A stretch of DNA of 64,000 nt from Micrococcaceae bacterium Sec5.1 (GTDB lineage Bacteria; Actinomycetota; Actinomycetes; Actinomycetales; Micrococcaceae), in assembly GCA_039636795.1 (NCBI GenBank), contig CP143430.1, forward strand, positions 4,712,001-4,776,000. Reading direction: 5' to 3'. A model generated the notes under the pieces. It made no database searches and was not told the DNA's origin. It was given only the letters and a program-made list of their open reading frames with translations. A program made the translations under genes and the position numbers. Every line of letters starts with the position of its first letter. Positions within the stretch are counted from its first letter, which is position 1. Shown one piece after another: positions 12,881 through 36,550 of this stretch.

Positions 12881-12955
12881 CTCTCTCACTTCCCGCGGCT
12901 TTAGGGACGTCCTTCTCTCACATCCTGAGGCTTTAAGGGAATCCCTCTCGCACAT
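12881..12955 (+). repeat. 32-bp-period tandem repeat downstream of bcp
   Basis: CTCTCAC or its variant CTCGCAC recurs at 12883, 12915 and 12947, exactly 32 bp apart, with similar sequence between (cgaggcttta-type then aGGGa). It belongs to the same family as the arrays at 16946-17186 and 36299-36545. Confidence 0.7.
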
Positions 12956-12970
12956 AACTGCACAATTTTT

Positions 12971-13004
12971 GTAACGCCCGCCCATGATTGTGAGCGGGCG
13001 TTAC
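12971..13004. terminator. Hairpin between bcp and the response-regulator gene
   Basis: An 11-bp inverted repeat (GTAACGCCCGC with GCGGGCGTTAC) has a 12-base loop. A T-run lies on its left rather than its right, so it is not a textbook terminator for bcp, though it could still stop or protect the transcript. Confidence 0.4.
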
Positions 13005-13056
13005 ACGTCTCTTTACTAAACGTGACAAAAGGCCCGCGGCAGTAGTTAATGGAGCC

Positions 13057-14226
13057 ATGGTCTCAACCGCGTCCCCTCGCCATGCTGTAGTCGTAGAAGA
13101 TGACGCCGATATCCGTGGCCTCCTCGTTTTGGTCCTTGAGCAGCTCGATTTTGTGGTGACGGAAGCGCCCGACGGTCTTTCCGGCGTCGAGGCCGTCCGC
13201 AACACCAACGCCGAACTGGTGACGCTGGATATCAACCTCCCGGACATCGATGGCATGGAAGTTTGCCGGCGCCTGCGGGAGTTCTCGGACGCCTACATCT
13301 TGATGCTCACCGCCCGTGCCGACGAGATTGACCGGCTCAACGGTTTGGACACCGGAGCGGATGATTACGTCAACAAGCCGTTCAGCCCCAAGGAACTGCA
13401 GGCCCGCATCCGTGCACTTTTCCGCCGGGCCCGAACACCCGCTGCACCCGCCGAGGACACCCGTCAGACTGACGAACTCGCCCGCGCTGCGGTTGTGCAG
13501 ACGAGCCTCCTCCCGCAGGAAACTGTCCGGCTGAAGGATTACGACGTCGCTGGTGCCTTCCGCCCATCGCGCAGCGTGGGTGGGGACTTCTACGACTGGT
13601 ACCAGACCGGCGACGGGATGCACCTGACGTTCGCCGACGCCATGGGCAAGGGCATGGGCGCGGCCTTGATAGCGGCCACTGTCCGCGCCGTCATGCGGTC
13701 AGTGGCGGACACCCCTGCAATTGCTGACGCCTTCGAGTCCGCCAGCGCCACACTGACCTCCGATCTGGACCAGTCCGGGTCCTTCGTGACCATGTTCCAT
13801 GCTCGCCTGGACAGTGCCTCGGGCAAGCTCAGCTATATCGACGCCGGTCATGGACTCGCTCTGCACGTTCCGGCCGAGGGGGCGGCACGGAGATTGGTAT
13901 CCGCCGGGCCACCTGTCGGGATACTGGAAGAACAGCAATGGCCGGCCGCGGAACTACAGCTGGAGCCGGGCGATTCCCTCGTGATCGTCAGCGACGGCGT
14001 CCTCGACGCTCACGATTCCCTTGAAGAGTTCGTGAGGAACGTAGAGAAGGCGGCGAGGAGCAGGGGCACCTCGGACGAGGTCTGTGCTGCCCTGCTGGAG
14101 CTTGCACCGGCGGACACAGCGGAAGATGACGTGACTGCCGTCGTGGTTCATCGACGGCGTGAGGTTGGCCGGGATGTTGGGCTGGAAGGCAACCACAGCG
14201 GAGTAGCTCAGACAATCCGGCACTAG
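13057..14226 (+). CDS. Response regulator with PP2C/SpoIIE phosphatase output
   Basis: The 389-residue protein has an N-terminal receiver (about 1-125) with the acidic pocket VVEDDAD, phosphoacceptor Asp58 in TLDINLPD, Thr85 and Lys107 in NKPF. A helical linker leads to a PP2C-type SpoIIE/RsbU domain (about 165-375) with SVGGDFYDW, FADAMGKGMGAAL and late acidic metal ligands (VSDGVLDA, AEDDVTAVV). It should dephosphorylate a phospho-STAS protein when activated by a histidine kinase, which is not encoded nearby. The likely substrate is the STAS protein encoded 2 kb downstream. GGAG precedes the ATG. Confidence 0.88.
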   Translation: MVSTASPRHAVVVEDDADIRGLLVLVLEQLDFVVTEAPDGLSGVEAVRNTNAELVTLDINLPDIDGMEVCRRLREFSDAYILMLTARADEIDRLNGLDTGADDYVNKPFSPKELQARIRALFRRARTPAAPAEDTRQTDELARAAVVQTSLLPQETVRLKDYDVAGAFRPSRSVGGDFYDWYQTGDGMHLTFADAMGKGMGAALIAATVRAVMRSVADTPAIADAFESASATLTSDLDQSGSFVTMFHARLDSASGKLSYIDAGHGLALHVPAEGAARRLVSAGPPVGILEEQQWPAAELQLEPGDSLVIVSDGVLDAHDSLEEFVRNVEKAARSRGTSDEVCAALLELAPADTAEDDVTAVVVHRRREVGRDVGLEGNHSGVAQTIRH

Positions 14227-14245
14227 TCACACAAAAGGGGGGAAC

Positions 14246-16207
14246 GTGACGCGATTCTGGACTCGGCTTTGTGTTGTCCTAACGGTCATTCTGGGCGTGA
14301 ATTACGTCGCGTGGCGCTGGCTGGCTTCCCTGAATTGGGAAGCGTGGTGGATCGCTGTTCCGCTGGTGATTGTAGAGACGTACAGCCTTATTGACGTGAT
14401 GCTATTCGGCCTGACGGTCTGGAACCTGAAGATTCGCAAGCCACCGCCCGCGGCGCCGGATAACGCGACGGTGGACGTTTTCATCACCACGTACAACGAG
14501 CCGCTGGACCTGGTGATGACCACCGCCCTCGCCGCCAAGGGCATACGCTGGCCGCACAGTACCTGGATTCTGGACGACGGCGACCGACCTGAGATGCGCG
14601 AGCTCGCCGAGTCGAACGGGATCGGTTACGTAACCCGCGGCGCCGACTGGACGCCGGACATGCCGCGGCACGCCAAGGCCGGCAACCTGAACAACGCGCT
14701 CATGATTACGTCGGGCGAATACCTGTTGATCCTCGACGCCGACCAGATCCCGGAGCCGGACATCCTGGACAAGACGCTGGGCTACTTCAACGATGACCGC
14801 GTGGCGTTGGTCCAGACGCCCCAGTACTTCATCAACGTTCCCGCCGACGATCCCCTGGGCAGCCAAGCACCCCTCTTTTATGGCCCGATCCAGCAGGGCA
14901 AGGACGGCTGGAACGCGGCGTTCTTCTGCGGCTCCAATGCGATCCTGCGCCGGGAAGCCCTCATGCAGCTTGGTTTGGTGGGATACGTCAAGGCCACGGA
15001 GAAGAGTGTGCGCCGTGCTCTGGCTGCGTCGCGGTCTGCCATCAAGAAGGCCCGGCGTTCGGCAGAGGCGGAGAACCCGCTGGTGGAGCAAATGCTCAAC
15101 GAGGTGGAAGCCGCCACCGAAAGCGCCCAGCAGGAGCTCGAAGCCGGGGCATCCCTGAGCGAGATCACGTACCGCGTACGCCGCAAAGTGGACGACGCCG
15201 TTCGCACGCTCGTGGCCGCCGACTTCTCAGCGCTCCAATCCGACCTCGAAGAAATCGCTGCCATGGAACTGGCCCACGTCGGCGAGTCTGGCGTCACGAC
15301 AGTGGCAAGTGACGCCGTCGACCGCATGTCCGGACGCGACTGGTCTCCGCTGGGCGCCCTCGAGTCCGTTCACGCAGTCCTGGACGCCATCTCCGTGGAA
15401 CGAACCGACGAAGCCCAGCCCATCATGCCCTTGGCCACCATCTCCGTCACTGAGGACATGGCTACGGCGATGCGCCTTCACGCCCTTGGCTGGAAGAGCG
15501 TCTACCACCACGAAGTCCTCGCCAACGGCCTGGCTCCCGAGGACATCAAAACCATGCTGACCCAACGCCTTCGCTGGGCCCAAGGCACCATGCAGGTCCT
15601 CCTGCGCGAGAACCCGTTGGTCCAACGCCGCCTCGCGTGGGGCCAGCGGCTCATGTACTTCTCCACCATGTGGAGCTACCTGAGCGGTTTCGCGGCCGTC
15701 GTCTACTTTGCGGCGCCCATCATCTACCTGACGCTCGGCATCCTCCCCGTCAGCAGCCTGAGCCTCGAGTTTTTCGCCCGTTTCATCCCGTTCATGGTGG
15801 TAAACCAGATGCTGTTTGTGATCGCCGGACACGGGATCCCCACCTGGCGCGGGCAGCAGTACAGCCTCGCGCTGTTCCCCACCTGGATCAAGGCCTGCAC
15901 GACGGCGGCACGTAACGTCTGGTTCGGCCGTCCCCTCGGGTTCGCCGTCACCCCCAAGGCCCGGCAGAGTGGCGGCCCCAGCTGGAGCCTGATTCGTCCC
16001 CAGATCATCGTTGCTGTGTTGCTGGCCGTTGCTCTCGTTGTCGGGCTGGCGCGGCTTCTTTCTGGCCTGTCGGAGCCCCTCGGAACCCTGGTGAATGTAG
16101 CGTGGGTAGCTTACGATCTGGTGGTCCTCAGCGTGCTGGTCAAGGCTGTTTTGTACAAGGGATTTGTTCCTGAAGTCTCCGAAGAGAGGAATGCTGATGC
16201 AGTTTAG
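14246..16207 (+). CDS. Membrane glycosyltransferase, cellulose-synthase-like, with helical insertion
   Basis: The 653-residue family-2 processive glycosyltransferase has two N-terminal membrane segments (about 8-58), then catalytic motifs DDG (110-112), DAD (164-166), TED (402-404) and QRLRW (440-444). Further membrane segments follow at about 465-555 and 590-645. BcsA-like enzymes have only about 30 residues between the FFCGS motif and TED; here there are about 170. The extra part (about 249-395) is charged, helical and coiled-coil-like. No PilZ domain is present, so cyclic-di-GMP control of the BcsA type is unlikely. The product is probably an extracellular polysaccharide, sugar unknown. 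It lies inside a phosphatase/STAS/kinase locus. Confidence 0.85.
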   Translation: MTRFWTRLCVVLTVILGVNYVAWRWLASLNWEAWWIAVPLVIVETYSLIDVMLFGLTVWNLKIRKPPPAAPDNATVDVFITTYNEPLDLVMTTALAAKGIRWPHSTWILDDGDRPEMRELAESNGIGYVTRGADWTPDMPRHAKAGNLNNALMITSGEYLLILDADQIPEPDILDKTLGYFNDDRVALVQTPQYFINVPADDPLGSQAPLFYGPIQQGKDGWNAAFFCGSNAILRREALMQLGLVGYVKATEKSVRRALAASRSAIKKARRSAEAENPLVEQMLNEVEAATESAQQELEAGASLSEITYRVRRKVDDAVRTLVAADFSALQSDLEEIAAMELAHVGESGVTTVASDAVDRMSGRDWSPLGALESVHAVLDAISVERTDEAQPIMPLATISVTEDMATAMRLHALGWKSVYHHEVLANGLAPEDIKTMLTQRLRWAQGTMQVLLRENPLVQRRLAWGQRLMYFSTMWSYLSGFAAVVYFAAPIIYLTLGILPVSSLSLEFFARFIPFMVVNQMLFVIAGHGIPTWRGQQYSLALFPTWIKACTTAARNVWFGRPLGFAVTPKARQSGGPSWSLIRPQIIVAVLLAVALVVGLARLLSGLSEPLGTLVNVAWVAYDLVVLSVLVKAVLYKGFVPEVSEERNADAV

Positions 16208-16529
16208 CTACGAGGTCAAAGACTCCTACGCGGAGGTGAAGAGCGTCGGCCGGTTGAATATGGTGGCCGCTCCGAAGCTGCGCGAACTAGTGGCCGAGGT
16301 TGTGGCGGGTGGGTCCAGTCGCGTTGTGGTGAACCTTGAAGAGACCGACTTCATGGATTCCTCGGGCCTCGGAGCCCTCATCGGTTGCCTCAAAGCGACT
16401 CGTCAGGCAGGCGGCGATTTGCGGATCTCGGGTGTGCAGCCACAGGTCAAAATGGTCCTGGAACTGACCAACATGGACCGCGTTCTCACCGCATACTCCT
16501 CAGCCGAGGAGGCGTTCGGAAATGACTGA
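16197..16529 (+). CDS. STAS-domain anti-sigma-factor antagonist-like protein
   Basis: The 110-residue single-domain STAS protein carries the phosphorylation loop FMDSSGLGALIG, with the target serine at residue 55 or 56. Start ATG 16197 is chosen because GAGAGGA lies 7 bases upstream; ATG 16191 is too close to it. It overlaps the glycosyltransferase stop by 11 bp and the kinase start by 8 bp. In this architecture the kinase phosphorylates the serine and the PP2C partner removes it; the unphosphorylated form binds a target, either the kinase itself or possibly the glycosyltransferase. Confidence 0.88.
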   Translation: MQFSYEVKDSYAEVKSVGRLNMVAAPKLRELVAEVVAGGSSRVVVNLEETDFMDSSGLGALIGCLKATRQAGGDLRISGVQPQVKMVLELTNMDRVLTAYSSAEEAFGND

Positions 16530-16941
16530 GGTCATCGCACGCAGGGGATTCCGCGGCCTGTCCAACGAAGAAGCCATCGAAGCCATCCATGCCGAGCTTG
16601 ATGCTTTGTGGGACGACGCCTCCTTCGTCCCGGACATGGACCGGATGACCTTCACCACCGCCGTCATTGAGGCCGCCGCCAACATCGTGCAACATGCCCT
16701 TCCCGTGGCCGAGAAGCCCGTGGAGATGGGTGTGGACATCAGCGTCCGGCCCAGCCGCCTTCAGGCGCGCGTCAGTGCCTACAACGCCCGCGAGCCCTTC
16801 GCCGAGGACATGCAGGCCAACATGCCGGACGAGGACGCCGAATCCGGACGCGGTCTTGCTCTCATCGAAGCCTTGGTGACCACCGTAACCTTCGAACGCC
16901 AAGACGGAACCAACACCTGGATCCTGACCCGCGAAACCTGA
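16522..16941 (+). CDS. RsbW-like HATPase serine kinase with altered G1 box
   Basis: The 139-residue single-domain GHKL protein is of the anti-sigma-factor kinase type. The N box is intact (Glu50-AAANIVQH, with Asn54), and the G2 loop is present (AESGRGLALIE, about 107-116). The G1 box, usually D-x-G-x-G, reads AYNAREPF, with Asn in the Asp position and no following glycines, so ATP binding may be weakened or lost. It is translationally coupled to the STAS gene. No sigma factor gene is adjacent, which favours a non-sigma target for this module. Confidence 0.82.
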   Translation: MTEVIARRGFRGLSNEEAIEAIHAELDALWDDASFVPDMDRMTFTTAVIEAAANIVQHALPVAEKPVEMGVDISVRPSRLQARVSAYNAREPFAEDMQANMPDEDAESGRGLALIEALVTTVTFERQDGTNTWILTRET

Positions 16942-16943
16942 CC

Positions 16944-17188
16944 TTCTCTCACATCCACCGGCCTTTCCGGCGATGCTCTCTCACACCCGGCGCCTGTGAT
17001 CGCGGGCGCGGTGTGTTCTGCCCATCGTAAGACGCTAGGCACCTGTAACCATTGATGGTCGGCGCAACCGCCAAAACCAATCACGATCTGCGAGAGCATC
17101 GGCCCAAACCGGTCACGATCTGCGAGAGCATCCGAAGTACTGACGTTCTCTCACATAATCGCCGATTTCCCGGAACGTTCTCTCACTT
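16944..17188. repeat. 32-bp-period repeat cluster between the kinase gene and pucG
   Basis: CTCTCAC occurs at 16946 and 16978, and again at 17148 and 17180. Between them two inverted units share CACGATCTGCGAGAGCAT at 17082 and 17114. Every pair is exactly 32 bp apart. The left end abuts the kinase stop codon and the right end abuts the pucG stop codon. Confidence 0.7.
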
Positions 17189-18281
17189 ACGCCTTGTCGA
17201 TGGCCTCTTTCAACGCGCCCAACACCAAAGTCACCGACGCCCGGTTCGCGTTCGGCCCCATCATTCCGATGCGCCAGACCGTATCCGTGAACTCGCCCAC
17301 CCCGGAACCGATCTCCATACTGAAGTTCTCCAGAAGGTAAGCGCGGACGGCGGCCGAGTTGACGCCGTCGGGCACTTTCACGGTGGTGAGGCTCGGCAGT
17401 CGGGCGCCTTCGGCCGCGAACAGCTCAAGTCCCATCTCCTGCAGGCCGCTCTGCAAGGCAGCGCCGGCAGCGCGGTGGCGGGCTTGGACGACGTCGAGCC
17501 CCTCGGCGAGGATGCGGTCGAGCGCGGCTTCGAGACCGGCGATCATGGTGACCGGCGCCGTGTGGTGGTACGTACGGGCACCGCTGGCAGCCCCGACGTA
17601 GCCGCCGAGCAGGCCGATATCCAGGTACCACGAGCGCGGATCCTTGACGCGACGCTCAAACGCGCGGTCGGACACGGTGAATGGCGAAAGCCCTGGCGGA
17701 ACGCCCAGGCACTTTTGAGTCCCGGCATATCCGACGTCGATCCCCCAGTCGTCTGCCAAGAGCTCCAGTCCGCCGATGGACGTCACGGCGTCGGTGATCA
17801 GCAAGGCGTCGCCCTTTCCTGCCCCCAGCGCAGCGATGTCGGAGAGGACGCCGACGGACGTTTCAGCATGGACGGCCGCAATCACCTTCGGATGAGGATG
17901 GGCCGAGAGCACCCGATCTGCATCCACCGGCTGGCCCCACTCGTGGTCGACCCGAACGACACTTGCCCCGCACCGCCGGGCGACCTCACACATTCGCGCC
18001 CCAAAAAGTCCATTGACAGCGATCACCGCCACATCGCCATCGGACACGGTGTTCACAAAAGCGGCCTCCATGCCGCCCGAACCTGTGGCACTCAACGGGA
18101 GCGTGCGCGCATTCGAAGTACCCCAGACAGCCCGCAAACCCTCGCATGTACGGTCCAAGCGTTCGATGAAGACCGGATCCAGATGGCCGAGCACTGGATA
18201 GGCCAGTGCAGCCATGGCCTCGGGGTAGCAGTTGCTCGGACCGGGACCGAACAGGAACCTTGACGTCAGAATGTCGGGCAT
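17187..18281 (-). CDS. pucG: Ureidoglycine/alanine-glyoxylate aminotransferase, PucG-like
   Basis: The 364-residue class V PLP-dependent aminotransferase starts FLFGPGPSNCYPEAM, has the cofactor aspartate in LITDAVTSIGG (Asp164) and the Schiff-base lysine in YAGTQKCLGVPPG (Lys190). The family includes alanine-, serine- and ureidoglycine-glyoxylate aminotransferases, and the substrate cannot be fixed from sequence. With allB, uraD, uraH and gcl nearby, the PucG role (ureidoglycine plus glyoxylate to glycine and oxalurate-type product) is the best inference. It is transcribed alone, toward the kinase locus. Confidence 0.85.
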   Translation of the reverse strand: MPDILTSRFLFGPGPSNCYPEAMAALAYPVLGHLDPVFIERLDRTCEGLRAVWGTSNARTLPLSATGSGGMEAAFVNTVSDGDVAVIAVNGLFGARMCEVARRCGASVVRVDHEWGQPVDADRVLSAHPHPKVIAAVHAETSVGVLSDIAALGAGKGDALLITDAVTSIGGLELLADDWGIDVGYAGTQKCLGVPPGLSPFTVSDRAFERRVKDPRSWYLDIGLLGGYVGAASGARTYHHTAPVTMIAGLEAALDRILAEGLDVVQARHRAAGAALQSGLQEMGLELFAAEGARLPSLTTVKVPDGVNSAAVRAYLLENFSMEIGSGVGEFTDTVWRIGMMGPNANRASVTLVLGALKEAIDKA

Positions 18282-18438
18282 GTGCGAACTCCTTCAGCTG
18301 GTTCTCGTCATTCTGCCCCAGGGTGCCGTGCGGTGCGAGTCTCCAAGCCCCGAGCCTCCAAGCCCAAACTGCTAAGGTTACTCATCAATGCGGAGGCCGC
18401 CACGGTAAGGGGACAGCCGCCACAGTGAGGGGACAAGG

Positions 18439-19269
18439 GTGACGACTGAAGGAAATGAGCAGCCAGAGAAGGGCGTCCGCGGCGAGGTAACCCAAGACCG
18501 ATTCGTTGCGGGACAAGATCTCACAAGGTGGAACACCCGGATTGGCCGTGTCCTGGCGGGGGCTGCACAACGAATCACCAAACTTCTGGGCCCTTACGCA
18601 GCGCTGATCATCACGTTGGCTGTGGGACTTCTCATTGCCGTCTCCCTCGCAGTGGCTTTCGGCGAGGTCTACGAGTCGGTCACCGAAGCCGACGGGGTCG
18701 CGGGCCTCGACCACCCTGTCCTTGACGCAGCCAAGACCGTTCGCTCCCCTGCAGTGGACCTTGCCATCACCGCTTACACGAATGTTGGCGGCACGGTTGG
18801 CATGCCGATCATCGCGGTGGGGATCATGATTGCGTTGGCCACGAAGCGCCGCTCTTGGACTCCTGTCATCCTGATGCTGACAGCGGGCCTGGGCTCACTG
18901 CTGATGACGATTCTGGGCAAGCCTCTGTTTGGCCGCACCCGCCCTGACCTCGCGGACGCCATTCCTCCGTACGAGCACTCGCCGTCGTTCCCCAGCGGCC
19001 ACTCCCTGAATTCCATCGTGATCGCAGGAATCGTGGCCTACTTGATCATTCTTCGCCTCAAAACGGCCAAGGCCAGAATCATCACCGTCGTCCTTGCATC
19101 AGCGTTTGCCGCGACCACGGGCTTGAGCCGCGTCTACCTCGGACACCACTGGCTCACAGATGTCCTGGCCGCGTGGGCTCTCGGCATAGCATGGCTTGCC
19201 TTGGTCATTACGGCGCACCGCCTCTACCTCACTGTGAGAACGCGGCGCCCCGACGCGGTACTCTCTTGA
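18439..19269 (+). CDS. PAP2-family membrane phosphatase
   Basis: The 276-residue protein starts at GTG 18439 behind a GAGGGGAC site. It has about six membrane segments and the three phosphatase motifs in order: KPLFGRTRP, PSFPSGHS and SRVYLGHHWLTD. The active site faces the outside in this superfamily, which dephosphorylates lipid phosphates such as undecaprenyl pyrophosphate or phosphatidate. The N-terminal 40 residues are cytosolic and charged. Its stop codon overlaps the -35 of the predicted uraD promoter. No functional link to the purine genes is evident. Confidence 0.88.
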   Translation: MTTEGNEQPEKGVRGEVTQDRFVAGQDLTRWNTRIGRVLAGAAQRITKLLGPYAALIITLAVGLLIAVSLAVAFGEVYESVTEADGVAGLDHPVLDAAKTVRSPAVDLAITAYTNVGGTVGMPIIAVGIMIALATKRRSWTPVILMLTAGLGSLLMTILGKPLFGRTRPDLADAIPPYEHSPSFPSGHSLNSIVIAGIVAYLIILRLKTAKARIITVVLASAFAATTGLSRVYLGHHWLTDVLAAWALGIAWLALVITAHRLYLTVRTRRPDAVLS

Positions 19270-19296
19270 CACCAGAGCAAGTGCTCGGCTTAACTA
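19266..19296 (+). promoter_or_regulatory. Predicted promoter of uraD-uraH
   Basis: TTGACA at 19266-19271 is followed by TTAACTA at 19290-19296, giving 18-19 bp spacing. The operator-like palindrome begins 23 bp further on, as at hyi. Confidence 0.45.
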
Positions 19297-19318
19297 TTTA
19301 CGTATGCTGAAATAACAG

Positions 19319-19333
19319 TTCCATGATGCGGAA
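19319..19333. promoter_or_regulatory. Operator-like palindrome TTCC-N7-GGAA (uraD copy)
   Basis: The site reads TTCCATGATGCGGAA and shares TTCCAnnAnGCGGAA with the hyi site at 5233-5247. An extra inverted half site TTCCGCAT lies at 19373-19380, pairing with ATGCGGAA at 19326-19333. Placement just past the predicted transcription start suggests repression. Confidence 0.45.
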
Positions 19334-19423
19334 GCAATGAGAAGCAAGCTTCCTCCTGCTAAAAGGTAGGAGTTCCGCATAGCCCACACCATGGATGCCA
19401 GCATTTGCACGAGGATGACAAGC

Positions 19424-19933
19424 ATGGAGCTTGCAGTATTCAACAGTGTTGACCGGGACGAGGCCATCAGGACCCTGACCCCTTGCCTGGATATCAGCCG
19501 CTGGGTTGAGGACGTCGCCGACGCCCGACCCTTCACGAGCGTCGACGAACTGCTGGGTCAGGCCCGCCAAGCCGCCGAGCCGTTCACGCCGGAAGAGGTG
19601 GAATCCGCGCTCGCCCACCACCCCCGGATCGGCGAACGACCCAAGGCCCAGACCACCGAGGCGGCCATGTCCCGTTCGGAACAATCCGGAGTGGACCCCA
19701 GCGACGACGGCACAGCCGCCGCCCTCGCCGAGGGGAACCATGCTTACGAAGAGAAGTTCGGCAGGGTCTTCCTGATCCGCGCGGCAGGACGCAGCGCGCA
19801 GGAGATCCTGAGTTCCCTTCAGGAACGCCTCACCCACACCCCCGAAGAAGAAGACGCAATTGTGGCTGGCCAGCTGCGGGAGATCGCATTGCTGCGACTC
19901 TCAGGCGTGATCAGCGAAGGAGAAAATGCATGA
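19424..19933 (+). CDS. uraD: OHCU decarboxylase
   Basis: The 169-residue protein decarboxylates 2-oxo-4-hydroxy-4-carboxy-5-ureidoimidazoline to S-allantoin. The signature HHPRIGERPKA contains the active-site histidine and the loop that holds the substrate, and the helical RTLTPCLDISRWVEDVADARPF start is typical. ATG 19424 is chosen because CGAGGA lies 8 bases upstream; in-frame ATGs at 19391 and 19415 lack a site. The stop overlaps uraH by 4 bp. Its product allantoin is the substrate of AllB from the upstream operon. Confidence 0.92.
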   Translation: MELAVFNSVDRDEAIRTLTPCLDISRWVEDVADARPFTSVDELLGQARQAAEPFTPEEVESALAHHPRIGERPKAQTTEAAMSRSEQSGVDPSDDGTAAALAEGNHAYEEKFGRVFLIRAAGRSAQEILSSLQERLTHTPEEEDAIVAGQLREIALLRLSGVISEGENA

Positions 19934-20271
19934 GTGTTTCACAGGTAACCACGCACATCCTGGATACCGGTTCCGGTCGCCCGGCGGCGGGGGTCGCCGT
20001 CGTACTCTACGTCCGCGAAGGCGATAACTGGACTCTGATCGCAAAGGGCGAGACCGATGCCGACGGCCGTATCAAGGACCTCGGTCCGGAGCGGATTCCG
20101 GGCGGCGCTTACCGTCTGAACTTTGCCACAGGCACCTACTACGAGGGCCTCGGCACGGAAACGTTCTTCCCGGAAGTGGATTTGAACTTCACGGTTTCGG
20201 ACGCCGGCGAGCACTATCACGTGCCGCTGCTGCTGAGCCCGTTCGCGTTTTCGACGTACCGCGGTAGCTGA
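19930..20271 (+). CDS. uraH: 5-hydroxyisourate hydrolase (transthyretin-like)
   Basis: The 113-residue protein hydrolyses 5-hydroxyisourate to OHCU. The N-terminal HILDTGSGRPAAGV, the arginine/histidine-bearing core, and the C-terminal tetrapeptide YRGS with preceding PFAFST are diagnostic of HIU hydrolases as opposed to transthyretin. It is coupled to uraD by an ATGA overlap, the usual order for consecutive urate-pathway steps. Uricase, the preceding enzyme, is not encoded next to it. Confidence 0.94.
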   Translation: MSVSQVTTHILDTGSGRPAAGVAVVLYVREGDNWTLIAKGETDADGRIKDLGPERIPGGAYRLNFATGTYYEGLGTETFFPEVDLNFTVSDAGEHYHVPLLLSPFAFSTYRGS

Positions 20272-20276
20272 TTCAA

Positions 20277-20339
20277 CGCCGAGGTGGCAGTTAATGCCAA
20301 TGTTCAGCGAGGACATTGGCATTAACTGCCACCTCGGCG
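20277..20339. repeat. Perfect 27-bp inverted repeat
   Basis: Both arms (20277-20303 and 20313-20339) are perfectly complementary over 27 bp around a 9-base loop, containing GGCAGTTAATGCC. It follows the uraH stop by 5 bases, ends 21 bases before the next ATG and lacks a T-run. It may terminate uraDH transcription, or it may be a repeat element. Confidence 0.75.
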
Positions 20340-20360
20340 AGGAACGGTAGGCTTGAAGGC

Positions 20361-20705
20361 ATGGCTTCTGAGGACACCAACGCCCAATCCGGAAACGGCA
20401 CTGCCCGCCGCGAAATCACAGTTCGCCGCGCACCCAAGTTCGTTCCGTTCATGATTCTCGGTGCCATTGTGGGTGCAATCGCCGCCGCCTTCATCGCGTA
20501 TGGCCGTCCCGCGGACCCCGCCTTCGACGCCAGCACCGTCTTCGGCTTCTTCCTGGTGGCCTGCGTTTCCGGAGGCGTCATCCTGTTCTCGATCCTCGCC
20601 CTGGTTCTGGACCGGATCAGCGTCAAGCGGTCCAAGCGTGCCGTAGTGGAAGCCGTCCCGGATTCGGTTCCGGATGAGGGTCCAGAGCACGACGGCGGTC
20701 GCTAG
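20361..20705 (+). CDS. Small two-helix membrane protein
   Basis: The 114-residue product has a charged N-terminus (about 1-28) and two membrane helices, FMILGAIVGAIAAAFIAYG (about 30-48) and FGFFLVACVSGGVILFSILALVL (about 62-84). A basic patch (DRISVKRSKRA) and an acidic C-terminal tail follow. The family is common just upstream of purF in this group of actinobacteria but has no known function that I can name. Start ATG 20361 is preceded by GAAGG. Confidence 0.65.
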   Translation: MASEDTNAQSGNGTARREITVRRAPKFVPFMILGAIVGAIAAAFIAYGRPADPAFDASTVFGFFLVACVSGGVILFSILALVLDRISVKRSKRAVVEAVPDSVPDEGPEHDGGR

Positions 20706-20839
20706 GCAGGCAGCCCGACGCACCTCTTTCGGGGGTGCTGTTGTGAGACACACCGCATTTTTGCCAAATGAAGCCTGTTCGCGGGGTCACAAAGCCGGAG
20801 CGGGAACTTACCACGGCCACAACATGAGACAATCGACCA

Positions 20840-23622: not shown

Positions 23623-23645
23623 GCGCGCTTCCTCTTAGTTAAAGA

Positions 23646-23690
23646 CGGCCGGGCAGTTGATCTCAACTGCCCGGCCGCTCTTTTTTGTTT
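23646..23690 (+). terminator. Intrinsic terminator after purM
   Basis: A 15-bp perfect stem (CGGCCGGGCAGTTGA with its complement) has a 2-base loop and is followed by CTCTTTTTTGTTTTT. It ends 8 bp before the convergent VOC gene's 3' end. Confidence 0.9.
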
Positions 23691-25775: not shown

Positions 25776-26018
25776 GGCGTGACCCCCTTTTGTACTTGGA
25801 CCGGAGGTGGTCACCTTGGCTATCGGTGAGGCCCCGGAATGTTTGGTCAATTTGTCGTATGTCTAGATTACATGCTTTCGAGGGTGCCTGCGTGCCACCC
25901 CGGACCTGCATCGGGTACAACTACGGTCCAAACCGCTCCCCACCACCTCCAATACACCAAAAAATTGGGTAGAGTCTGCCTCAATGCGGCTCCAAAGCAG
26001 GAAGGCAGACTCCGGGAT

Positions 26019-26939: not shown

Positions 26940-26948
26940 CCCGCCGAC

Positions 26949-29606: not shown

Positions 29607-29642
29607 CGAAAGCTCCCTTTCTGGAGTAAGACCAATACTTTC

Positions 29643-29669
29643 AAAGTTGAGTCTACTACGCTCAACTTT
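29643..29669 (-). promoter_or_regulatory. HAIR-like HspR operator upstream of clpB
   Basis: AAAGTTGAGT, then 7 bp, then GCTCAACTTT forms an inverted repeat matching the HAIR consensus CTTGAGT-N7-ACTCAAG in TTGAGT-N7-xCTCAA. HspR represses clpB and dnaK operons through this element in actinobacteria. Confidence 0.75.
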
Positions 29670-29811
29670 GCTTTGTGGCCCATGTGTTCCATGTTTGCCC
29701 ACGGCGAAACACCTGTCCAGACGAAACCATGGCTATGTGAATAACAGGGGTCTACGATCAGGCAGTGACAGGGTGGAACCACTAACAAATACCCGCAACA
29801 AAGGACACGAC

Positions 29812-30147
29812 ATGACTAAGTACGTGGCGCTTTACACCGCTCCCCAGTCCGCCGAATCCGCAATGGAAGAAGCCTCCCCCGAGTCAGCAGCCGAAGGCAT
29901 GAAAGTCTGGATGGACTGGGCCAACAAGGCCGGCGACGGGATCATCGATCTTGGCACGCCTCTGGGCGGAGGTAAGGAAGTGGCAAACTCAGGTGTCTCC
30001 GATACCAACACAGGCGTAGCGGGGTACACCATCCTCCAGGCCGAAAACATGGACGGCGCCCTTGCTCTCCTGGAGGGCCACCCGCACCTGATGATGCCCG
30101 GAGCCAGCATCCAGGTCGACGAGGCCCTGGACATTCCAGGCATGTAA
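29812..30147 (+). CDS. YCII-related domain protein
   Basis: The 111-residue protein starts MTKYVALYTAPQSAESAMEEAS at ATG 29812 (AAAGGA upstream). It contains the dimeric ferredoxin-like YciI/DGPF-type fold with MKVWMDWANKAGDGIIDLGTPLGGG and a late LLEGHPHLMMPGASIQVDEALDIPG. The histidine in EGHPH corresponds to a conserved position in the family. Members include uncharacterised small enzymes near sigma factors, but no such link is seen here, and the substrate is unknown. Confidence 0.8.
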   Translation: MTKYVALYTAPQSAESAMEEASPESAAEGMKVWMDWANKAGDGIIDLGTPLGGGKEVANSGVSDTNTGVAGYTILQAENMDGALALLEGHPHLMMPGASIQVDEALDIPGM

Positions 30148-30170
30148 CTGCCAACCAGGCGGGGCTGGCC

Positions 30171-31250
30171 TCACGCCGGATAGATCGAGACCAGCGCGGA
30201 CTTCACGACGAACCGCACGTCCACGCCCGGTGCCAGGCCGAGATCGGCAGAGGCAGCAGGAGTGATGTCTGCGGACAATGTGCCGCGCTTCCCCGCGCCC
30301 GGTCCGCCCGCCCTGACGCGGATCTGGTCGCCGTGCGGCTCCAAGTCACTGACGGTGACAGGAAAGGAGTTGCGTGGGCTTCCGTGCACTTCGCCAAGAA
30401 AAACGGAAACGGCCGACGGCGGGAAGGCCGCCACGCCTGCCTGGCCGAGTGCAGGTGACCACTCCGGATCGTGGTGTCCGGCGAAAAGCCGGCCATCCGG
30501 CGTCGTGATTCCCTGCTCGGAGATGATTCCGCTGACGAGGTTCAGTCCTGCAAGCCCGGCCGCAAAGTGGCTCCGAGGGCGTTCGAGGACTTGGCGGGTT
30601 GGGCCTTCCTCGGAAATCCGCCCGTTCTCCACGACAATGACGCGATCGGCGAGCATGTAGGCGTCCAGGACGTCGTGCGTGACGATGATGGCGTTGCGTC
30701 CATCCAGGACCCGTTTGAGGACGCGGCGCAGCAGTGGTGCGGCATGGATATCCAGGGCCGACATCGGCTCATCGAGGAGCAATAACTCGGGCTCCGTGGC
30801 GAGCGCCCTAGCAACGGCCACACGCTGTGCCTGACCACCGGACAGCTCTGCTGGTTTGCGGGACTCCAGATGAAGGGCGTCCACCTCAGTCAGCCAAAGC
30901 CGGGCGGTTTCGCGGGCCGCGGCTTTGGCTGTGCCCTTGCTGCGGGGCCCGAAGGCGACGTTGTCCAGCACGTTCAGGTGCGGAAACAGCAGTGCCTCCT
31001 GAGCGAGCAGCGCAGTGCCGCGCAGGTGCGGGGCGTTCCACTGGTGATTGCCGCCGTCGAGGTCAAAAAGCTGCCGGCCGCCAATCTGTGCACTCCCGGA
31101 ATCTGGCCGCAGAAGGCCCGAAATCACCCCAAGAAGAGTTGATTTTCCGGCGCCGTTGGGACCGAGAATGGCTAGCGTTTCGCCATCGGAAAGCTTGATT
31201 GACATCTCGAAGTTGCGGGATATAAGGCTCGCTTCCAGTTCAAACGTCAT
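30171..31250 (-). CDS. modC: Molybdate ABC transporter ATPase
   Basis: The 359-residue protein has an ATPase domain (about 1-235) with Walker [10 protein letters not shown], signature [15 protein letters not shown] and Walker [15 protein letters not shown]-terminal TOBE/Mop domain (about 290-359, ending [25 protein letters not shown]) binds oxyanion in this family. It powers molybdate uptake through ModB. It overlaps modB by 4 bp and is the last gene of the minus-strand cluster regulator-modA-modB-modC. Confidence 0.9.
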
Positions 31251-32068
31251 GGCTGGACGTCCGCAGGGGCGTTTGCGCCAGTGTTGCTGGGGCGTCGACC
31301 GTAGCTGAGGCCAACTACTGCCGCGGCCACCGCCACCAAAACCAGAGACAGAGCGACGGCGGCGTCGGGGTCAGTTTCGCGCTGAAGGTAAATCTCCAAG
31401 GGAAGAGTGCGCGTGACGCCTTGCAAGCTGCCGGCGAAGGTCAAGGTAGCGCCAAACTCTCCGAGGCTGCGCGCGAAGGACAAAACGGCGCCCGACGCGA
31501 GCCCCGGCAGGACCAAGGGCAGTGTGACGCGGCGCAGGACGGTGGTTGGCCGCGCGCCCAGGGTCGCCGCCACGGCCTCATACTTGCTTCCCGCAGTCCG
31601 CAGGGCGCCTTCGAGGCTGACAACCAAGAACGGCAAGGCCACGAATGTTTGTGCAAGCACCACGGCGGTAGTGGAGAACGCGATCTGAATTCCGGCCATT
31701 TCGAGCGACTTCCCCAGCAAACCTTGCCGCCCGAAGGTGTAGAGCAGCGCGATACCTCCGACGACGGGCGGCAGCACGAGGGGCAACAGCACCAAGGAGC
31801 GCAGCAGCCTCTGCCCGGGAAACTCCCCGCGGGCCAGGACAAGGGCCAACGGCACACCAAGCACGATGCACAACAGGGTGCTTGCTGCTGACGTCCTCAG
31901 GCTCAGGCCCAACGCATCGAGCGACGATTCCGACGTGATGAGCGGAAGGAACTGGGACCAGTTCACGCGCACCAGCATCGCGAGCAGGGGAAGAATCACC
32001 AGCAGACCGCCCGCAACGGCGATCACGTAGATCCACCGTGGGATGCCGTGGTATCCAGTTCGATTCAT
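31247..32068 (-). CDS. modB: Molybdate ABC transporter permease
   Basis: The 273-residue membrane protein has five to six hydrophobic segments. The EAA-loop-type motif [27 protein letters not shown] docks the ATPase, and [14 protein letters not shown] is the ModB hallmark. ATG 32068 is chosen since it follows the modA stop by 7 bases with TAGGAA upstream; the frame continues further but inside modA. It overlaps modC by 4 bp. Confidence 0.9.
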
Positions 32069-32075
32069 TGCGTTC

Positions 32076-32864
32076 CTACGAGGGGCCGAAGCCAGCGTCG
32101 CCCAGAACCTTCTGCCCCGCGCTGCCGGTGACCATGGCAATGAAGGCGCGGGCGAGGTCCTTGTTTTTGCTGGTGCCCACAGTGGCGATCGGATACGTAT
32201 TGACGGCCTTGCCGGACTCCGGAAACGGTATGCCCTTCACCTTGCTCCCAGCACCCTTGATGTCCGTCACGTAAACCAGCCCGGCGTCGGCTTCCTGCGA
32301 GACGACCTTGCCCAGCACATCACTGACTGATGACTCTTCGCTGACCGGGCTCAACGTGGTCCCCGAGGCCTTCTCTATCGTCTCCGCGGCCGCACCACAA
32401 GGAACCTGGCTGGCACAGACCACAACTTTGACGCCGGGCCTGGACAGGTCCGCGAAGGAAGAGATCGACGCCGGGTTGCTGGGCGGGACAGCGATCTCCA
32501 GTATGTTCGTGGCAAAGTTTGTCGCGGTGCCGTCCACGAGTTTTGCGTCCGAGACCTTGGTCATGTTCTTGGTATCGGCTGAGGCAAACACATCAGCTGG
32601 TGCACCCTGGGTGATTTGCGTTGCCAAGTCTGAAGAACCGGCGAAGCTAAGGTTCACTTTGGTGCCGGGGTTTTTGGCCTCGAAGTTCTGGGCAAGTTGG
32701 GTGAACGGTGCTTTGAGGGACGCTGCGGCGAAGACGGTGATGGTGCCCCCCAGCTGATTCCCGGTTGCCGTTGGGCCTGCGGCGTTTGAAGCACAGCTCG
32801 CCATACCGGCCGCCACGGCGACCGCGACTAAGAGCGCCATGGCTTTCGTGCCAGTGTTCCTCAT
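32076..32864 (-). CDS. modA: Molybdate-binding lipoprotein
   Basis: The 262-residue substrate-binding protein has a lipobox (GMASC, Cys24) after a hydrophobic signal, so it is anchored outside the membrane. The mature part starts [21 protein letters not shown], with [24 protein letters not shown] and a late [14 protein letters not shown], all typical ModA ligand segments. The start ATG overlaps the regulator gene's stop by 4 bp. Confidence 0.92.
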
Positions 32865-33271
32865 ACGACGCTCTTTCCCTGAGGCGTTTCGATGATGACA
32901 GTTGTGGCCTTCACCACCGCTGTAGCCACTGACCCAAGTTCCAGACCAAGCTCGCGCACGGCTTCACTGCTCATCAGCGACACCACACGGAACGGCCCAC
33001 ATTGAAGCTCCACCTGTGCCATGACTTTGTCCGCGGTAATGCCCGTGACCAGACCGACGAAGCGGTTCCGGGCCGAGCTGCCTGTACGGGCGGGATCGTC
33101 CGGAAGGTGCGACTGATCGCGGGCAACCTTGGCCAGCTCCAAGCCATCCACAGCGAGTCGGCCCGCGGCGTCCTTCCGGGCGGTAAGTGTTCCGTTCTCG
33201 GTCCACCGCCTCACAGTGTCGTCGCTGACACCAAGGAACCGGGCTGCTTCGGAGATCCGTATTTGCGGCAT
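32861..33271 (-). CDS. Helix-turn-helix/TOBE molybdate-responsive regulator
   Basis: The 136-residue protein joins a MerR/excisionase-type helix-turn-helix (IRISEAARFLGVSDDTVRRWTENG, residues 4-27) to a Mop/TOBE domain (about 65-136, RNRFVGLVTGITADKVMAQVELQCG...). The Mop unit binds molybdate or tungstate, so this probably senses oxyanion and regulates modABC. It is first in the operon, coupled to modA by ATGA. Repeats of its likely site overlap its own start codon and promoter, which suggests autoregulation. It is a single-Mop relative of ModE rather than ModE itself. Confidence 0.85.
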   Translation of the reverse strand: MPQIRISEAARFLGVSDDTVRRWTENGTLTARKDAAGRLAVDGLELAKVARDQSHLPDDPARTGSSARNRFVGLVTGITADKVMAQVELQCGPFRVVSLMSSEAVRELGLELGSVATAVVKATTVIIETPQGKSVV

Positions 33272-33324
33272 GAAAATATTCTAAGGCAGTATTTGCGGAT
33301 TCTATTGTGTGATAGCTCCGCAAA
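33259..33324. promoter_or_regulatory. Candidate operator region of the mod operon
   Basis: GTATTTGCGG occurs at 33259-33268 (across the start codon) and 33289-33298, exactly 30 bp apart. TCCGCAAA at 33317-33324 is the inverted half site, giving TTTGCGGA-N17-TCCGCAAA at 33292-33324. The region is AT-rich and contains the likely minus-strand promoter. Confidence 0.45.
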
Positions 33325-33454
33325 ACGGAATGTTACTGTCTAGTTCCAAGCGAGAGCGCCGCTGGTGCGCTGGGCGGCAAACGGTGCGGGCCGCCGTCGT
33401 ACTCTATCCGGCGTGGAGTCATAGCCGTAACCTGTTGCCAAGGAACTCCTACGC

Positions 33455-33551
33455 TCCTTCCCAGTTGCTGTGACCACACGGGCAGTGAAGCCTGTGCTTC
33501 CGGGGCGGACGCTCGGCGGTAGCCGCTCCGACGACCGGTAACTGGGAAGGA
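33455..33551. repeat. Inverted-repeat element, copy 1
   Basis: This 97-bp element begins TCCTTCCCAGTTGCT and ends GGTAACTGGGAAGGA, so its ends are complementary over TCCTTCCCAGTT. Copy 2 at 38729-38837 carries the same ends in opposite orientation, with a shared TTCCGGGG inside. It ends 22 bp before the HD-protein ATG, whose upstream GAAGGA lies in the element. Confidence 0.6.
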
Positions 33552-33573
33552 TCGTTTGGCTTACACTTTGCCA

Positions 33574-34443
33574 ATGGCCGTATATGTCGATCCGCCCCTG
33601 TGGCCCGCCCACGGCACCGTGTTTTCACATCTGGTATCAGACAAGTCCTTGGACGAGCTTCACGCTTTCGCCGAGGCGGCCGGAGTCCCCGAAAGGGCGT
33701 TCGACGGCGACCACTACGACGTTCCTGAACGCCGCTACAACGACCTCGTAGCGGCTGGAGCCATTCCCGTGGAGGCAAGGGTCCTGGTCCGGAAACTCAT
33801 CGCGAGCGGCCTTCGCATTCCAGCACGCGATCGCAGCAAAGCCCTCACCGTTCCGCTGATGGAGCGATGGAACAGCACCTACCCCGGGCACGAGGAACTC
33901 GGTTTGGAACTACTGGAACGGTGGGGCGAGGACGGCCGTAAGTACCACAGTCGGACCCATTTGCTGGCCGTCCTCGAAGCCCTGGACATTTTGACGGAAC
34001 CCGCCCTCCCTGCCCGCACAGTCACGCTGGCGGCCTGGTTCCACGACGCCGTCTATGAAGGTGTCGCGGGGCAGGACGAAGAAGAATCCGCGCGGCTTGC
34101 CGAGGACCGACTGACTGCTGCACGGCTTGCCCCGGAAGATGTCGCCGAGGTGGCCCGATTGGTCCGGCTCACCGCCGAGCACAATCCCAAACCCGGCGAC
34201 CACGCCGGAGCCCTCCTCTGCGACGCCGATCTCTCCGTACTCGGAGGTAACGAACAGTCCTACGCGCGCTACCTGGCCGCAGTCCGGGAAGACTATGCCC
34301 ACGTCAGCGACGACGACTTCGCCAAGGGGCGTGCCGCCGTCGTGCGTCATCTGCTGTCACTGGACCCTCTCTTCCACGGTGAGCGGGCCAAGGCGCTCTG
34401 GCTTGACGCAGCCCGCCGCAACCTCACCGCCGAACTCGGATGA
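33574..34443 (+). CDS. DUF4031 plus HD-domain protein
   Basis: The 289-residue product from ATG 33574 starts MAVYVDPPLWPAHGTVFSHL, the DUF4031 signature, covering about the first 85 residues. The second part is an HD-type domain with YHSRTHLLAVLEAL, AAWFHDAVYEG and a late CDADLSVLGG, holding the expected histidine/aspartate metal ligands, so a phosphohydrolase is likely. Substrate unknown. Some pipelines give this family eukaryotic receptor-subunit names, which are wrong. It is coupled to comB by a 4-bp overlap. A TTG at 33556 is an alternative start. Confidence 0.8.
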   Translation: MAVYVDPPLWPAHGTVFSHLVSDKSLDELHAFAEAAGVPERAFDGDHYDVPERRYNDLVAAGAIPVEARVLVRKLIASGLRIPARDRSKALTVPLMERWNSTYPGHEELGLELLERWGEDGRKYHSRTHLLAVLEALDILTEPALPARTVTLAAWFHDAVYEGVAGQDEEESARLAEDRLTAARLAPEDVAEVARLVRLTAEHNPKPGDHAGALLCDADLSVLGGNEQSYARYLAAVREDYAHVSDDDFAKGRAAVVRHLLSLDPLFHGERAKALWLDAARRNLTAELG

Positions 34444-35204
34444 GCGAACCGGGAGCGCCCCAGCGGCAGTTGCCGTACTCGGTCCGGTTCGAATGGGGGC
34501 TCGACGGCGCCCGCGCCATAGTGCCACGGGCGGACCTTGCTGTTGTGGTTGACGTCCTTTCCTTCACGACGTGCGTGAGCGTCGCCGTGGATCGTGGGGC
34601 GGCCGTTTTTCCCTACCCGATGCGCGATGCTGCGGCGAGTGAGTTCGCCGCTCATCATCAGGCTGCGCTGGCCGGACCGCGTGGCGGGGAGGGGTTGAGT
34701 TTGTCTCCGGCGAGCCTGCGTCATGCGCCGCATCTTGAGCGTGTAGTCCTGCCGTCACCCAACGGCTCGACGCTGAGTCATGAGCTCGCCAACTCCGCAC
34801 GACAAGTAGTGGCTGTATGCTTACGCAACGCCGCGGCGACCGCCGACTGGGTCCATGCCACACTGCCTCCGGATGCGGTGATTGCTGTGATCGCCGCAGG
34901 TGAGAAGTGGACCAATGGCTCGCTGCGGCCAGCATTGGAGGACGAGCTCGGAGCGGGAGCATTCATCGCCGGATTGGCAGGATCGGGGCGCCGGAATTTC
35001 TCACCTGAAGCCGGATCTGCGGCGGCGGCCTTCGACGCCGCCGAGCCCAAGCTGGCCTCGGTGCTGCGCGGTTGCTCCAGCGGGCGGGAACTAATAGATG
35101 GGGGCTTCATTGAAGACGTGGCAATTGCCGCCGAGTTGGATGGCAGCACGGTGGTTGCTTTGCTGACGGATGGGGCTTTTCAGGGCCTCCGCCCGACCGA
35201 TTAG
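34440..35204 (+). CDS. comB: 2-phosphosulfolactate phosphatase family protein
   Basis: The 254-residue ComB-family protein shows VVDVLSFTTCVSVAVDRGA, LPSPNGSTLSHELA and VIAAGEKWTNGSLRPALEDELGAGAFI, the family's conserved blocks. ComB makes sulfolactate in methanogen coenzyme M synthesis, but actinobacterial members occur without that pathway, so the physiological substrate here is open. It overlaps the HD gene by 4 bp, and the two form a short operon. Confidence 0.8.
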   Translation: MSEPGAPQRQLPYSVRFEWGLDGARAIVPRADLAVVVDVLSFTTCVSVAVDRGAAVFPYPMRDAAASEFAAHHQAALAGPRGGEGLSLSPASLRHAPHLERVVLPSPNGSTLSHELANSARQVVAVCLRNAAATADWVHATLPPDAVIAVIAAGEKWTNGSLRPALEDELGAGAFIAGLAGSGRRNFSPEAGSAAAAFDAAEPKLASVLRGCSSGRELIDGGFIEDVAIAAELDGSTVVALLTDGAFQGLRPTD

Positions 35205-35213
35205 ACCGGCGAG

Positions 35214-35615
35214 CTAGCGATAGGTGCTGACGAACGGCTGGTTGGTCGGCACAATCTGCTTGCCGAGAGGCATGAGCGACACCGGGATCAGCTTCAGGTT
35301 AGCGATAGCCAGCGGGATACCGATGATGGTGATGGCCATGGCGAAAGCCGTAACCACGTGGCCGATCGCAATCCAGATACCAGCAACCAGTAGCCAAATC
35401 ACGTTGCCCAGAAGTGCGAAGACACCCGTTCCGCCGGGCTTCTCCACCACCATCCGGCCAAACGGCCACAAACAATATGCGCCGATCCGGAACGAAGCGA
35501 TGCCCCAAGGAATGGTCACAATGAGCACGCAGCAGATAATGCCTGCTGCGAAATAGCCCAGTGCCAACCAGAAACCACCGAAGACCAGCCAAATGATGTT
35601 GAGCAGCGTTTTCAT
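35214..35615 (-). CDS. yccF: YccF-family inner-membrane protein
   Basis: The 133-residue protein starts MKTLLNIIWLVFGGFWLALGY. It has two repeated halves, each with hydrophobic helices and the phrase IPWGIASFRIG or IGIPLAIANLKLIPVSLMPLGK, which defines YccF. ATG 35615 has AAGGGAGAA 8 bases upstream. Function unknown. It is convergent with comB, 9 bp apart, with no obvious terminator. Confidence 0.88.
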   Translation of the reverse strand: MKTLLNIIWLVFGGFWLALGYFAAGIICCVLIVTIPWGIASFRIGAYCLWPFGRMVVEKPGGTGVFALLGNVIWLLVAGIWIAIGHVVTAFAMAITIIGIPLAIANLKLIPVSLMPLGKQIVPTNQPFVSTYR

Positions 35616-35702
35616 AGTCTCAATTCTCCCTTGCCGGACAGACATTAAGCCTCAGGGTCTGCCCTGAATCGGCCCTGAGTTTGACGACGCATCAGGGGCG
35701 AT

Positions 35703-36152
35703 TTAGTCCAGCAATGCGTCCAGCTTGTCGAAGGAAGTTCCCCAGCCATCCCGTGTCATTTCGACCCATTCTTCAGATGCGAAAGGTCCCTGGGTAAGAT
35801 GCATCCGGGTGCGTCCGTTGAGGTCTTCGAATTCGAGGTGCATTTCCTCGTACTCATGATCGGCATCGGGAGCAGCCTTTGCCCTTGCTACGAGGAGCGC
35901 GGGTGCATCCAACTCCGTGATGACAGCTTCGATGGGTGCTTCCTGCTCCCCCTCATCGTCCGTCCATGCCATGACCACTTGCCAGATTCCGCCCACGTGC
36001 GGCTCCACGATGATCTTGTCGCGTGGAGCATCCACTTCCACGGGCCCGAACCACTTGGTGAGCTGATCCGGGTCCATCCAGGCATCGAAGATCCGATCAC
36101 GCGGGGCGTCGAACTCGCGGATCAGGGTCAGGGTGTGCTGTTCCGTGCTCAT
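35703..36152 (-). CDS. SRPBCC / AHSA1-type protein
   Basis: The 149-residue START-like protein starts LTLIREFDAPRDRIFDAWMDPDQLTKWFGP, then VGGIWQVVM, then FEDLNGRTRMHL, ending with a GWGTSFDKLDALLD helix. These are the marks of the AHSA1 subgroup, which bind hydrophobic ligands or act as accessory factors; no catalytic role can be assigned. A threefold 12-bp direct repeat lies in its leader. Confidence 0.85.
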   Translation of the reverse strand: MSTEQHTLTLIREFDAPRDRIFDAWMDPDQLTKWFGPVEVDAPRDKIIVEPHVGGIWQVVMAWTDDEGEQEAPIEAVITELDAPALLVARAKAAPDADHEYEEMHLEFEDLNGRTRMHLTQGPFASEEWVEMTRDGWGTSFDKLDALLD

Positions 36153-36183
36153 TGCTTGGGCTCCTGGTTTCGTTGGTCCGATT

Positions 36184-36219
36184 GTTTGGTTCCGCGTTTG
36201 GTTCCGCGTTTGGTTCCGT
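36184..36219. repeat. Three tandem 12-bp repeats upstream of the SRPBCC gene
   Basis: GTTTGGTTCCGC occurs three times head to tail (36184, 36196, 36208; the last base of the third differs). They lie 32-67 bp upstream of the SRPBCC start codon and could be operator repeats. Confidence 0.6.
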
Positions 36220-36298
36220 GTGTAAGTCCAGTGGAGTGTCTCAGTGAATCGTGTCGTCGTGAGGGAGTCTAGGGTGTGCCAGTGCTAAGTCCGATGCT

Positions 36299-36370
36299 CT
36301 CTCACATCATCACCCGAATTCCCCAACCTTCTCTCACATCAATCACCCGAATGACCCGATGTTCTCTCAT
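36299..36370 (+). repeat. 32-bp-period repeat, three units
   Basis: CTCTCAC (or CTCTCAT) occurs at 36299, 36331 and 36364, with CACCCGAAT between units. The first spacing is 32 bp and the second 33 bp. Same family as 12881-12955 and 16946-17186. Confidence 0.7.
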
Positions 36371-36397
36371 ATCATGAACCGTTCGGGGGTGTCCGCC

Positions 36398-36550
36398 GGC
36401 AGGACGTGACAGAGGAACGCCCCAAAAGCCGCAGGACGTGAAAGAGGAACGCCCCAAACACGGCAGGACGTGACAGAGGAACGGCCGAAAAGCAGCAGGA
36501 CGTGAGAGAGGAACGCCCGAAAAGCAGCAGGACGTGAGAGAACGTCAGGC
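36398..36550 (-). repeat. 32-bp tandem array directly downstream of trpF
   Basis: Four complete 32-bp units (starting 36398, 36430, 36462 and 36494) and a partial fifth share GCAGGACGTGA, then AGAGGAACG. Read on the minus strand each unit contains CTCTCACGTCC, so the array belongs to the dispersed CTCTCAC family. The partial unit runs into the trpF stop codon at 36545. Confidence 0.85.

Follow-up and report, generated by a model that had tools for sequence, protein, structure and literature searches.

Repeated sequences that lie behind genes are known from several systems. Mycobacterial interspersed repetitive units (MIRUs) are actinobacterial intergenic tandem repeats beside stop codons, with units longer than those reported here and placed at the stop/start overlaps of operon genes. 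The Sal-box/TTF-I arrays of eukaryotic ribosomal DNA are repeated, oriented binding sites at a gene 3' end, and DNA uptake sequences occur in dialects and often lie in terminators. Repetitive extragenic palindromic (REP) sequences and bacterial interspersed mosaic elements (BIMEs) are extragenic, occur in many copies on the 3' side of genes, form inverted modules and are targeted by IS3-family insertion sequences (IS), among them IS1397, ISKpn1 and ISPsy8 (PMC1525189). Here we describe 32-bp tandem arrays found in a 64,000-nt stretch (the window; contig CP143430.1, positions 4,712,001 to 4,776,000) of Micrococcaceae bacterium Sec5.1. These arrays are lineage-specific repeats of Arthrobacter-group soil bacteria and lie at the far ends of dozens of genes.

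Like MIRUs, the arrays are actinobacterial intergenic tandem repeats near stop codons, but their unit is 32 bp and they lie mostly at gene ends, convergent ones being favoured. With DNA uptake sequences they share a species-typical core and inverted pairs behind genes, yet they shun genes and are tandem with a fixed period; since the units avoid genes, we set natural uptake sequences aside. The oriented, repeated sites of the Sal-box/TTF-I arrays may serve as a working model by analogy. The likeness to REPs and BIMEs covers all the features listed above, but the arrays are direct tandem units at a fixed 32 bp, non-palindromic in the host genome (G000; the other G numbers denote relatives) and with a central palindrome in G080. 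Membership of the RAYT/REP family was rejected, as the unit is non-palindromic (no covariation of positions -4 and +7) and a RAYT transposase (PF01797) was found in 1 of 61 genus genomes, G000 being among the 60 without it. Neither Arthrobacter nor Actinobacteria turned up when the main text of PMC3733652 was searched for these words, and searches of open-licence PMC papers gave no description of these 32-bp arrays.

A 32-bp repeat at gene ends

An earlier note on the window had reported CTCTCAC at exact 32-bp spacing and suggested a dispersed repeat family with a role at gene ends. A scan of the 5.43-Mb chromosome bears this out, with 104 exact CTCTCAC-N25-CTCTCAC pairs (48+56) against 0 for the reversed pattern. 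In the window the heptamer by itself shows no enrichment (12 copies against an expected 9.4); the non-randomness lies in the periodicity. We then sampled 864 kb of G000, comprising the window and 40 further stretches of 20 kb each, 26 of which surround listed pairs while 14 were picked blind, with a weight matrix built from paired units. At a score of at least 10 this gave 249 units, compared with 3 in the reversed sequence, and no unit lay in the 14 blind-chosen stretches. The unit has the consensus S-G-A-Y-S-Y-T-CTCTCAC-R-T-C-C followed by a G+C-rich linker whose sequence varies and whose centre is rich in T; the conserved part of the unit in G000 is about 17 bp (GAYSYTCTCTCACRTCC), with two-fold degenerate positions at Y, S, Y and R.

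Same-strand neighbours are exactly 32 bp apart in 163 of 173 cases, the remainder being 30-34 bp apart. Nearly all runs (73/76) hold at least two units (3 single, 26 double, 23 triple, maximum 7). By eye, linkers are similar within one array and different between arrays, which does not fit the identical repeats and unique spacers of a CRISPR (clustered regularly interspaced short palindromic repeats) array. The spacing is the same in relatives: among pairs of the generalised core YTC-NN-TCAC (see below) with a spacing of 30-34 bp, the spacing is 32 bp in 38 of 41 in eight relatives whose stretches were chosen by synteny and are thus unbiased, while the corresponding counts are 131/139 in G000, 65/65 in G080 and 30/31 in G061, where most stretches were chosen for holding a 32-bp pair.

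The arrays are placed with respect to genes. Only 2 of the 249 units fall inside gene calls. Among intergenic spaces of 40-900 bp (IS-bearing spaces excluded in G000), arrays occupy 16/71 convergent, 19/226 codirectional and 4/110 divergent spaces in G000 (convergent vs codirectional, P 0.003), and 18/28, 16/67 and 2/39 in G080; because the stretches were mostly selected for holding arrays, these values are meaningful only as a comparison between space types. In codirectional G000 spaces 23 runs are sense and 7 antisense, and junctions between runs are facing in 18 cases and back-to-back in 4. Where a G000 run has an upstream sense gene end, 17 of 56 begin exactly 4 nt past the stop codon (TGA 10, TAA 5, TAG 2), so that the first unit overlaps it, and 39 runs are within 60 nt in the stop-distance listing; stop distances and space types alike depend on gene calls from a home-made hexamer model that misses some genes. 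The 3'-end association, exact period and scarcity of single units are well supported in G000, and the proposal of a dispersed repeat family linked to 3' ends is supported.

In the window, CTCTCAC is found on the + strand at 12883, 12915, 16946, 16978, 17148, 17180, 36299 and 36331 and on the - strand at 36502 and 36534, in pairs 32 bp apart, confirming the three sites and both orientations first described. Variant units in register are missed by a plain CTCTCAC count, namely CTCTCGCAC at 12945, CTCGCAG at 17088 and 17120 (-), CTCTCAT at 36364, and CTGTCAC and CTTTCAC within the trpF array. The arrays and the genes that they adjoin are as follows.

12408..12878, + strand: bcp-like thiol peroxidase gene, which bears the first array (NCBIfam cut-off passed, 148 vs 140 bits)
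12876..12955, + strand: three-unit array from the bcp stop codon, third unit CTCTCGCAC
12971..13004, + strand: hairpin past the bcp array, with a left arm that resembles a unit and keeps to the 32-bp register (register by eye)
16522..16941, + strand: RsbW-like anti-sigma ATPase gene (weak, below curated cut-off)
16939..16990, + strand: two sense units past the stop codon of the RsbW-like gene
17088..17126, - strand: two variant units with CTCGCAG cores
17142..17187, + strand: two units, in antisense to the - strand aminotransferase gene and in contact with its stop codon
17187..18281, - strand: aminotransferase gene (below curated cut-off)
36292..36375, + strand: three units facing the trpF array, the antisense arm of an inverted array pair
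36399..36547, - strand: five sense units from the trpF stop codon
36545..37141, - strand: trpF-like gene, phosphoribosylanthranilate isomerase (below curated cut-off)

The earlier note had placed the arrays within a few bases of the stop codons of bcp, a kinase gene, pucG and trpF. This stands for bcp (TAA+4), the RsbW-like gene that it called the kinase gene (TGA+4) and trpF (TGA+4), while at its pucG, the aminotransferase gene, the core is at 0 nt but antisense. Of the gene names, bcp is above the NCBIfam cut-off; the kinase (RsbW-like, weak), pucG and trpF assignments are below curated cut-offs.

An Rfam scan of the window at the gathering score returned a single match, a guanidine-III riboswitch (RF01763, 60 bits) at 37944-38009 (+), upstream of gene calls at 38019-38722; it lies outside the arrays, which match no curated family. 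The window also contains another, distinct tandem repeat of 15/30 bp close to the end of a gene (55230-55319) and about 3.5 kb without a strong gene call (1821-5324), beside an open reading frame at 453-1820 that presumably encodes a GIY-YIG protein.

Distribution, core dialects and an insertion sequence

In a first search, CTCTCAC pairs were found in 21 of 59 genomes (own and relatives). The bcp and trpF ends of genomes in which this search had found few pairs or none, G022 and G012 among them, bear variants of the 32-bp unit, and the core was therefore generalised to YTC-NN-TCAC. Pairs of this form occur in 45 of 61 genus genomes, with a maximum of 275 pairs in G067 and 5 matches in all for the reversed control. 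Across the family 44 of 295 genomes match; outside the genus of the host only genus g45 has many pairs, and in the remaining 30 genera no genome exceeds one pair. With the narrow pattern, the matches listed include many Arthrobacter, Pseudarthrobacter and Paenarthrobacter genomes and single matches elsewhere, of the kind expected by chance from a pattern with 14 fixed bases. Among plasmids, two very large records of Arthrobacter sp. StoSoilB13 have matches covering roughly half of the trpF array, and the record inspected is unannotated there. A phage origin was rejected, as all 7 IMG/VR matches to a triple-unit pattern are short-period microsatellites. In a bcp+trpF tree of 25 genomes the 10 array-rich ones are scattered, which needs 5 changes, at least 3 of them forced by well-supported branches.

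Counted over distinct units in the sampled stretches of each genome, NN is TC in 110/123 units in G000, 58/60 in G080 and 13/14 in G020, and GC in 28/28 in G067. Such uniformity may be kept by a trans-acting factor or by copying between loci. The bcp, aminotransferase and trpF ends bear arrays in several species with different NN cores and copy numbers. Since NN differs at the same gene ends, cores seem to change in place. At one G067 locus (contig C10, 118368-118886) a whole facing-array module is tandemly repeated three times in 184-bp steps.

A 1302-bp IS3-family element with an rve domain is present in five near-identical full copies in the G000 chromosome (C1 761499, 1079508, 1483633, 3145587 and 5041918), all five inside or at the edge of arrays; a sixth match is a fragment. 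A search of 121 genomes (E up to 1e-100) listed 23 copies, 13 of them with at least 85% identity. Twelve of these 13 are in arrays (in G000, G023, G080 and G378), the exception being a fragment in G004. One G023 copy (L345) has no unbroken pair by script because the element splits the pair, and was placed in an array from its flanks. Among the 10 more distant copies, eight have no pair and two have one relaxed pair each, perhaps by chance.

The arrays are also unevenly spread along the chromosome. The G000 record begins with dnaA, with dnaN, recF and gyrB nearby, and the terminus is therefore expected near 2.7 Mb. Among the 100 of 104 exact pairs whose positions were listed (in order, to 5.25 Mb), none lies between 1.82 and 3.14 Mb, the terminus-side quarter. 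A similar depletion is seen in G020, where the 67 of 71 pairs listed are all within 0.30-2.84 Mb, the origin side as judged by the position of bcp.

Possible roles of the arrays

The earlier note offered a protein-binding array or a transcript-end signal as examples of a role. The first idea fits because the spacing is exact, single units are nearly absent and the core is typical of the genome, and the second because the arrays are placed at 3' ends. We tentatively propose, with a probability of roughly 35%, that these are REP/BIME-like elements of gene 3' ends, in which an array of protein-binding sites serves as a polar boundary to transcription. Each unit would be one putative binding site for a sequence-specific factor, and head-to-tail sites about three helical turns apart would allow at least two molecules to bind next to each other. 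Once occupied, an array directed away from the stop codon could then form a polar barrier at which transcription beyond the gene ends or is insulated, and convergent genes would each have their own array, the two facing one another. Local duplication may account for array growth and homogenisation, and one IS uses the arrays as its landing site.

This proposal rests on exact spacing kept while linkers differ between loci, on the near absence of units from genes, and on occupancy that falls from convergent to codirectional to divergent spaces in G000 and G080. It also draws on the sense bias and facing excess in G000, on cores that are nearly uniform within G067, G080 and G000 while linkers differ, on two-fold degenerate positions without -4/+7 covariation, on the location of all five G000 IS copies, and on the bcp, aminotransferase and trpF ends, which carry arrays in several species with different cores and copy numbers. 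A doubtful extension is a genus-level boundary system, in which a sequence-specific DNA-binding terminator or insulator protein acts on oriented 32-bp arrays at gene ends and the site has changed in concert across the genome between species (CTCTCTCAC, CTCGCTCAC, CTCCCTCAC).

A number of observations weigh against the boundary proposal. In G061 occupancy has no 3'-end trend (1/8 convergent, 7/30 codirectional and 1/8 divergent spaces), and in G000 four arrays sit between divergent genes. In G080 codirectional spaces hold 11 sense and 11 antisense runs, with no sense bias, and only 2 of 38 runs are at the equivalent stop distance. Stop-codon abutment, strong in G000 and weak in G080, is therefore not a defining trait of the whole family. 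The array orientation at the aminotransferase gene varies among G000, G008 and G023. NN is mixed in G061 and G008, so a factor reading NN would not be general. The terminus region may lack arrays simply because conserved genes are fewer in it, and the inner-arm covariation of G080 (below), if it marks a hairpin, is unneeded by a simple direct-repeat site. The boundary proposal and the three alternatives that follow overlap in part and are not fully exclusive.

The alternative that survives best, possible though far from probable, is that the transcribed array loads Rho as an unstructured, C-over-G, YC-rich stretch exposed behind the terminating ribosome, with two to three units supplying the approximately 70-80 nt that Rho needs, and that Rho then stops transcription downstream. 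Rho utilisation (rut) sites are described as unstructured, C over G and YC-rich in PMC6407284 and PMC12350095, and the G000 array ends resemble them. In the first 80 nt after the stop codon, the 31 ends where a sense array lies no further than 20 nt away have a C/G of 1.97, 21.0 YC per 80 nt and a mean minimum free energy of -18.2, compared with 1.05, 12.3 and -33.1 at 78 array-free convergent ends and 1.10, 12.3 and -27.0 at 123 array-free codirectional ends. The linker halves in G000 are less complementary than shuffled ones, which also removes a linker hairpin around the T-run as a candidate. Linkers are G-poor in G061 and G008 (C/G 3.5 and 4.2), and C exceeds G in G020 too, but C/G is below 1 in G080 (0.65), G067 (0.87), G022 (0.77, 4 units) and G012 (0.96, 5 units). 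Moreover, folding of the array ends remains stronger than that of mononucleotide shuffles (-18.2 vs -13.7), and antisense arrays exist. Since the consensus of rut sites is loose (PMC12350095), Rho leaves the fixed TCAC, the exact 32-nt spacing and the lineage restriction unexplained.

It is unlikely that the arrays are amplified arms of bidirectional hairpin terminators, in which the central inverted pair would be the terminator and extra 5' and 3' arms, added in 32-nt register via slippage, would give repeated chances of stem formation in both directions. The case for this comes mainly from G080, where 14 of 23 facing pairs share the same 13-nt gap and the inner facing arms (positions -9 to -1) have 141 matches compared with 106 (standard deviation 6) in shuffled pairs, so that a central hairpin is likely in that genome. 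In addition, by eye, the last in-register unit at bcp serves as the left hairpin arm in G000, G008, G023 and G021, and several genomes with few or no arrays have a single unit 31-32 nt upstream of such a bcp hairpin. However, covariation does not extend to the outer linkers of G080 (P 0.93 and 0.96), and the facing arms do not covary significantly in G000 (15 pairs, P 0.08) or at all in G067 (9 pairs). Facing gaps in G000 range from 5 to 248 bp, no hairpin was scored for 43 of 76 runs there over the 160 nt examined, and single-orientation arrays occur in G061. Strong hairpins are no commoner at G000 array ends (43% of 21) than at other convergent ends (60% of 42), a comparison that also bears on the idea of arrays as a replacement of hairpins, which was set aside. 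A small hairpin within the unit (GAY...RTC) was rejected as well, for want of covariation (-4/+7 association P 0.68 in G000).

Selfish or neutral repeats under concerted evolution (slippage, gene conversion and some mobilisation), enriched behind genes since they are tolerated mainly there, would suit the patchy occurrence on the tree, the variable copy number at one locus and the use of arrays as IS targets, but are improbable given that 3 of 76 runs are single, that the 32-bp spacing is kept while linkers differ, that occupancy tracks 3' ends in G000 and G080, and that PF01797 gave no RAYT candidate beyond the 1 in 61 genomes, other mobilisers not having been searched.

If a factor binds to them, the arrays would provide bacteria with a boundary to transcription that is both oriented and modular. 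Should they load Rho, they would be an uncommon example of rut sites whose consensus is fixed. At one and the same gene the number of units varies from species to species, and the arrays clearly illustrate how an IS can have a single repeat family as its target.

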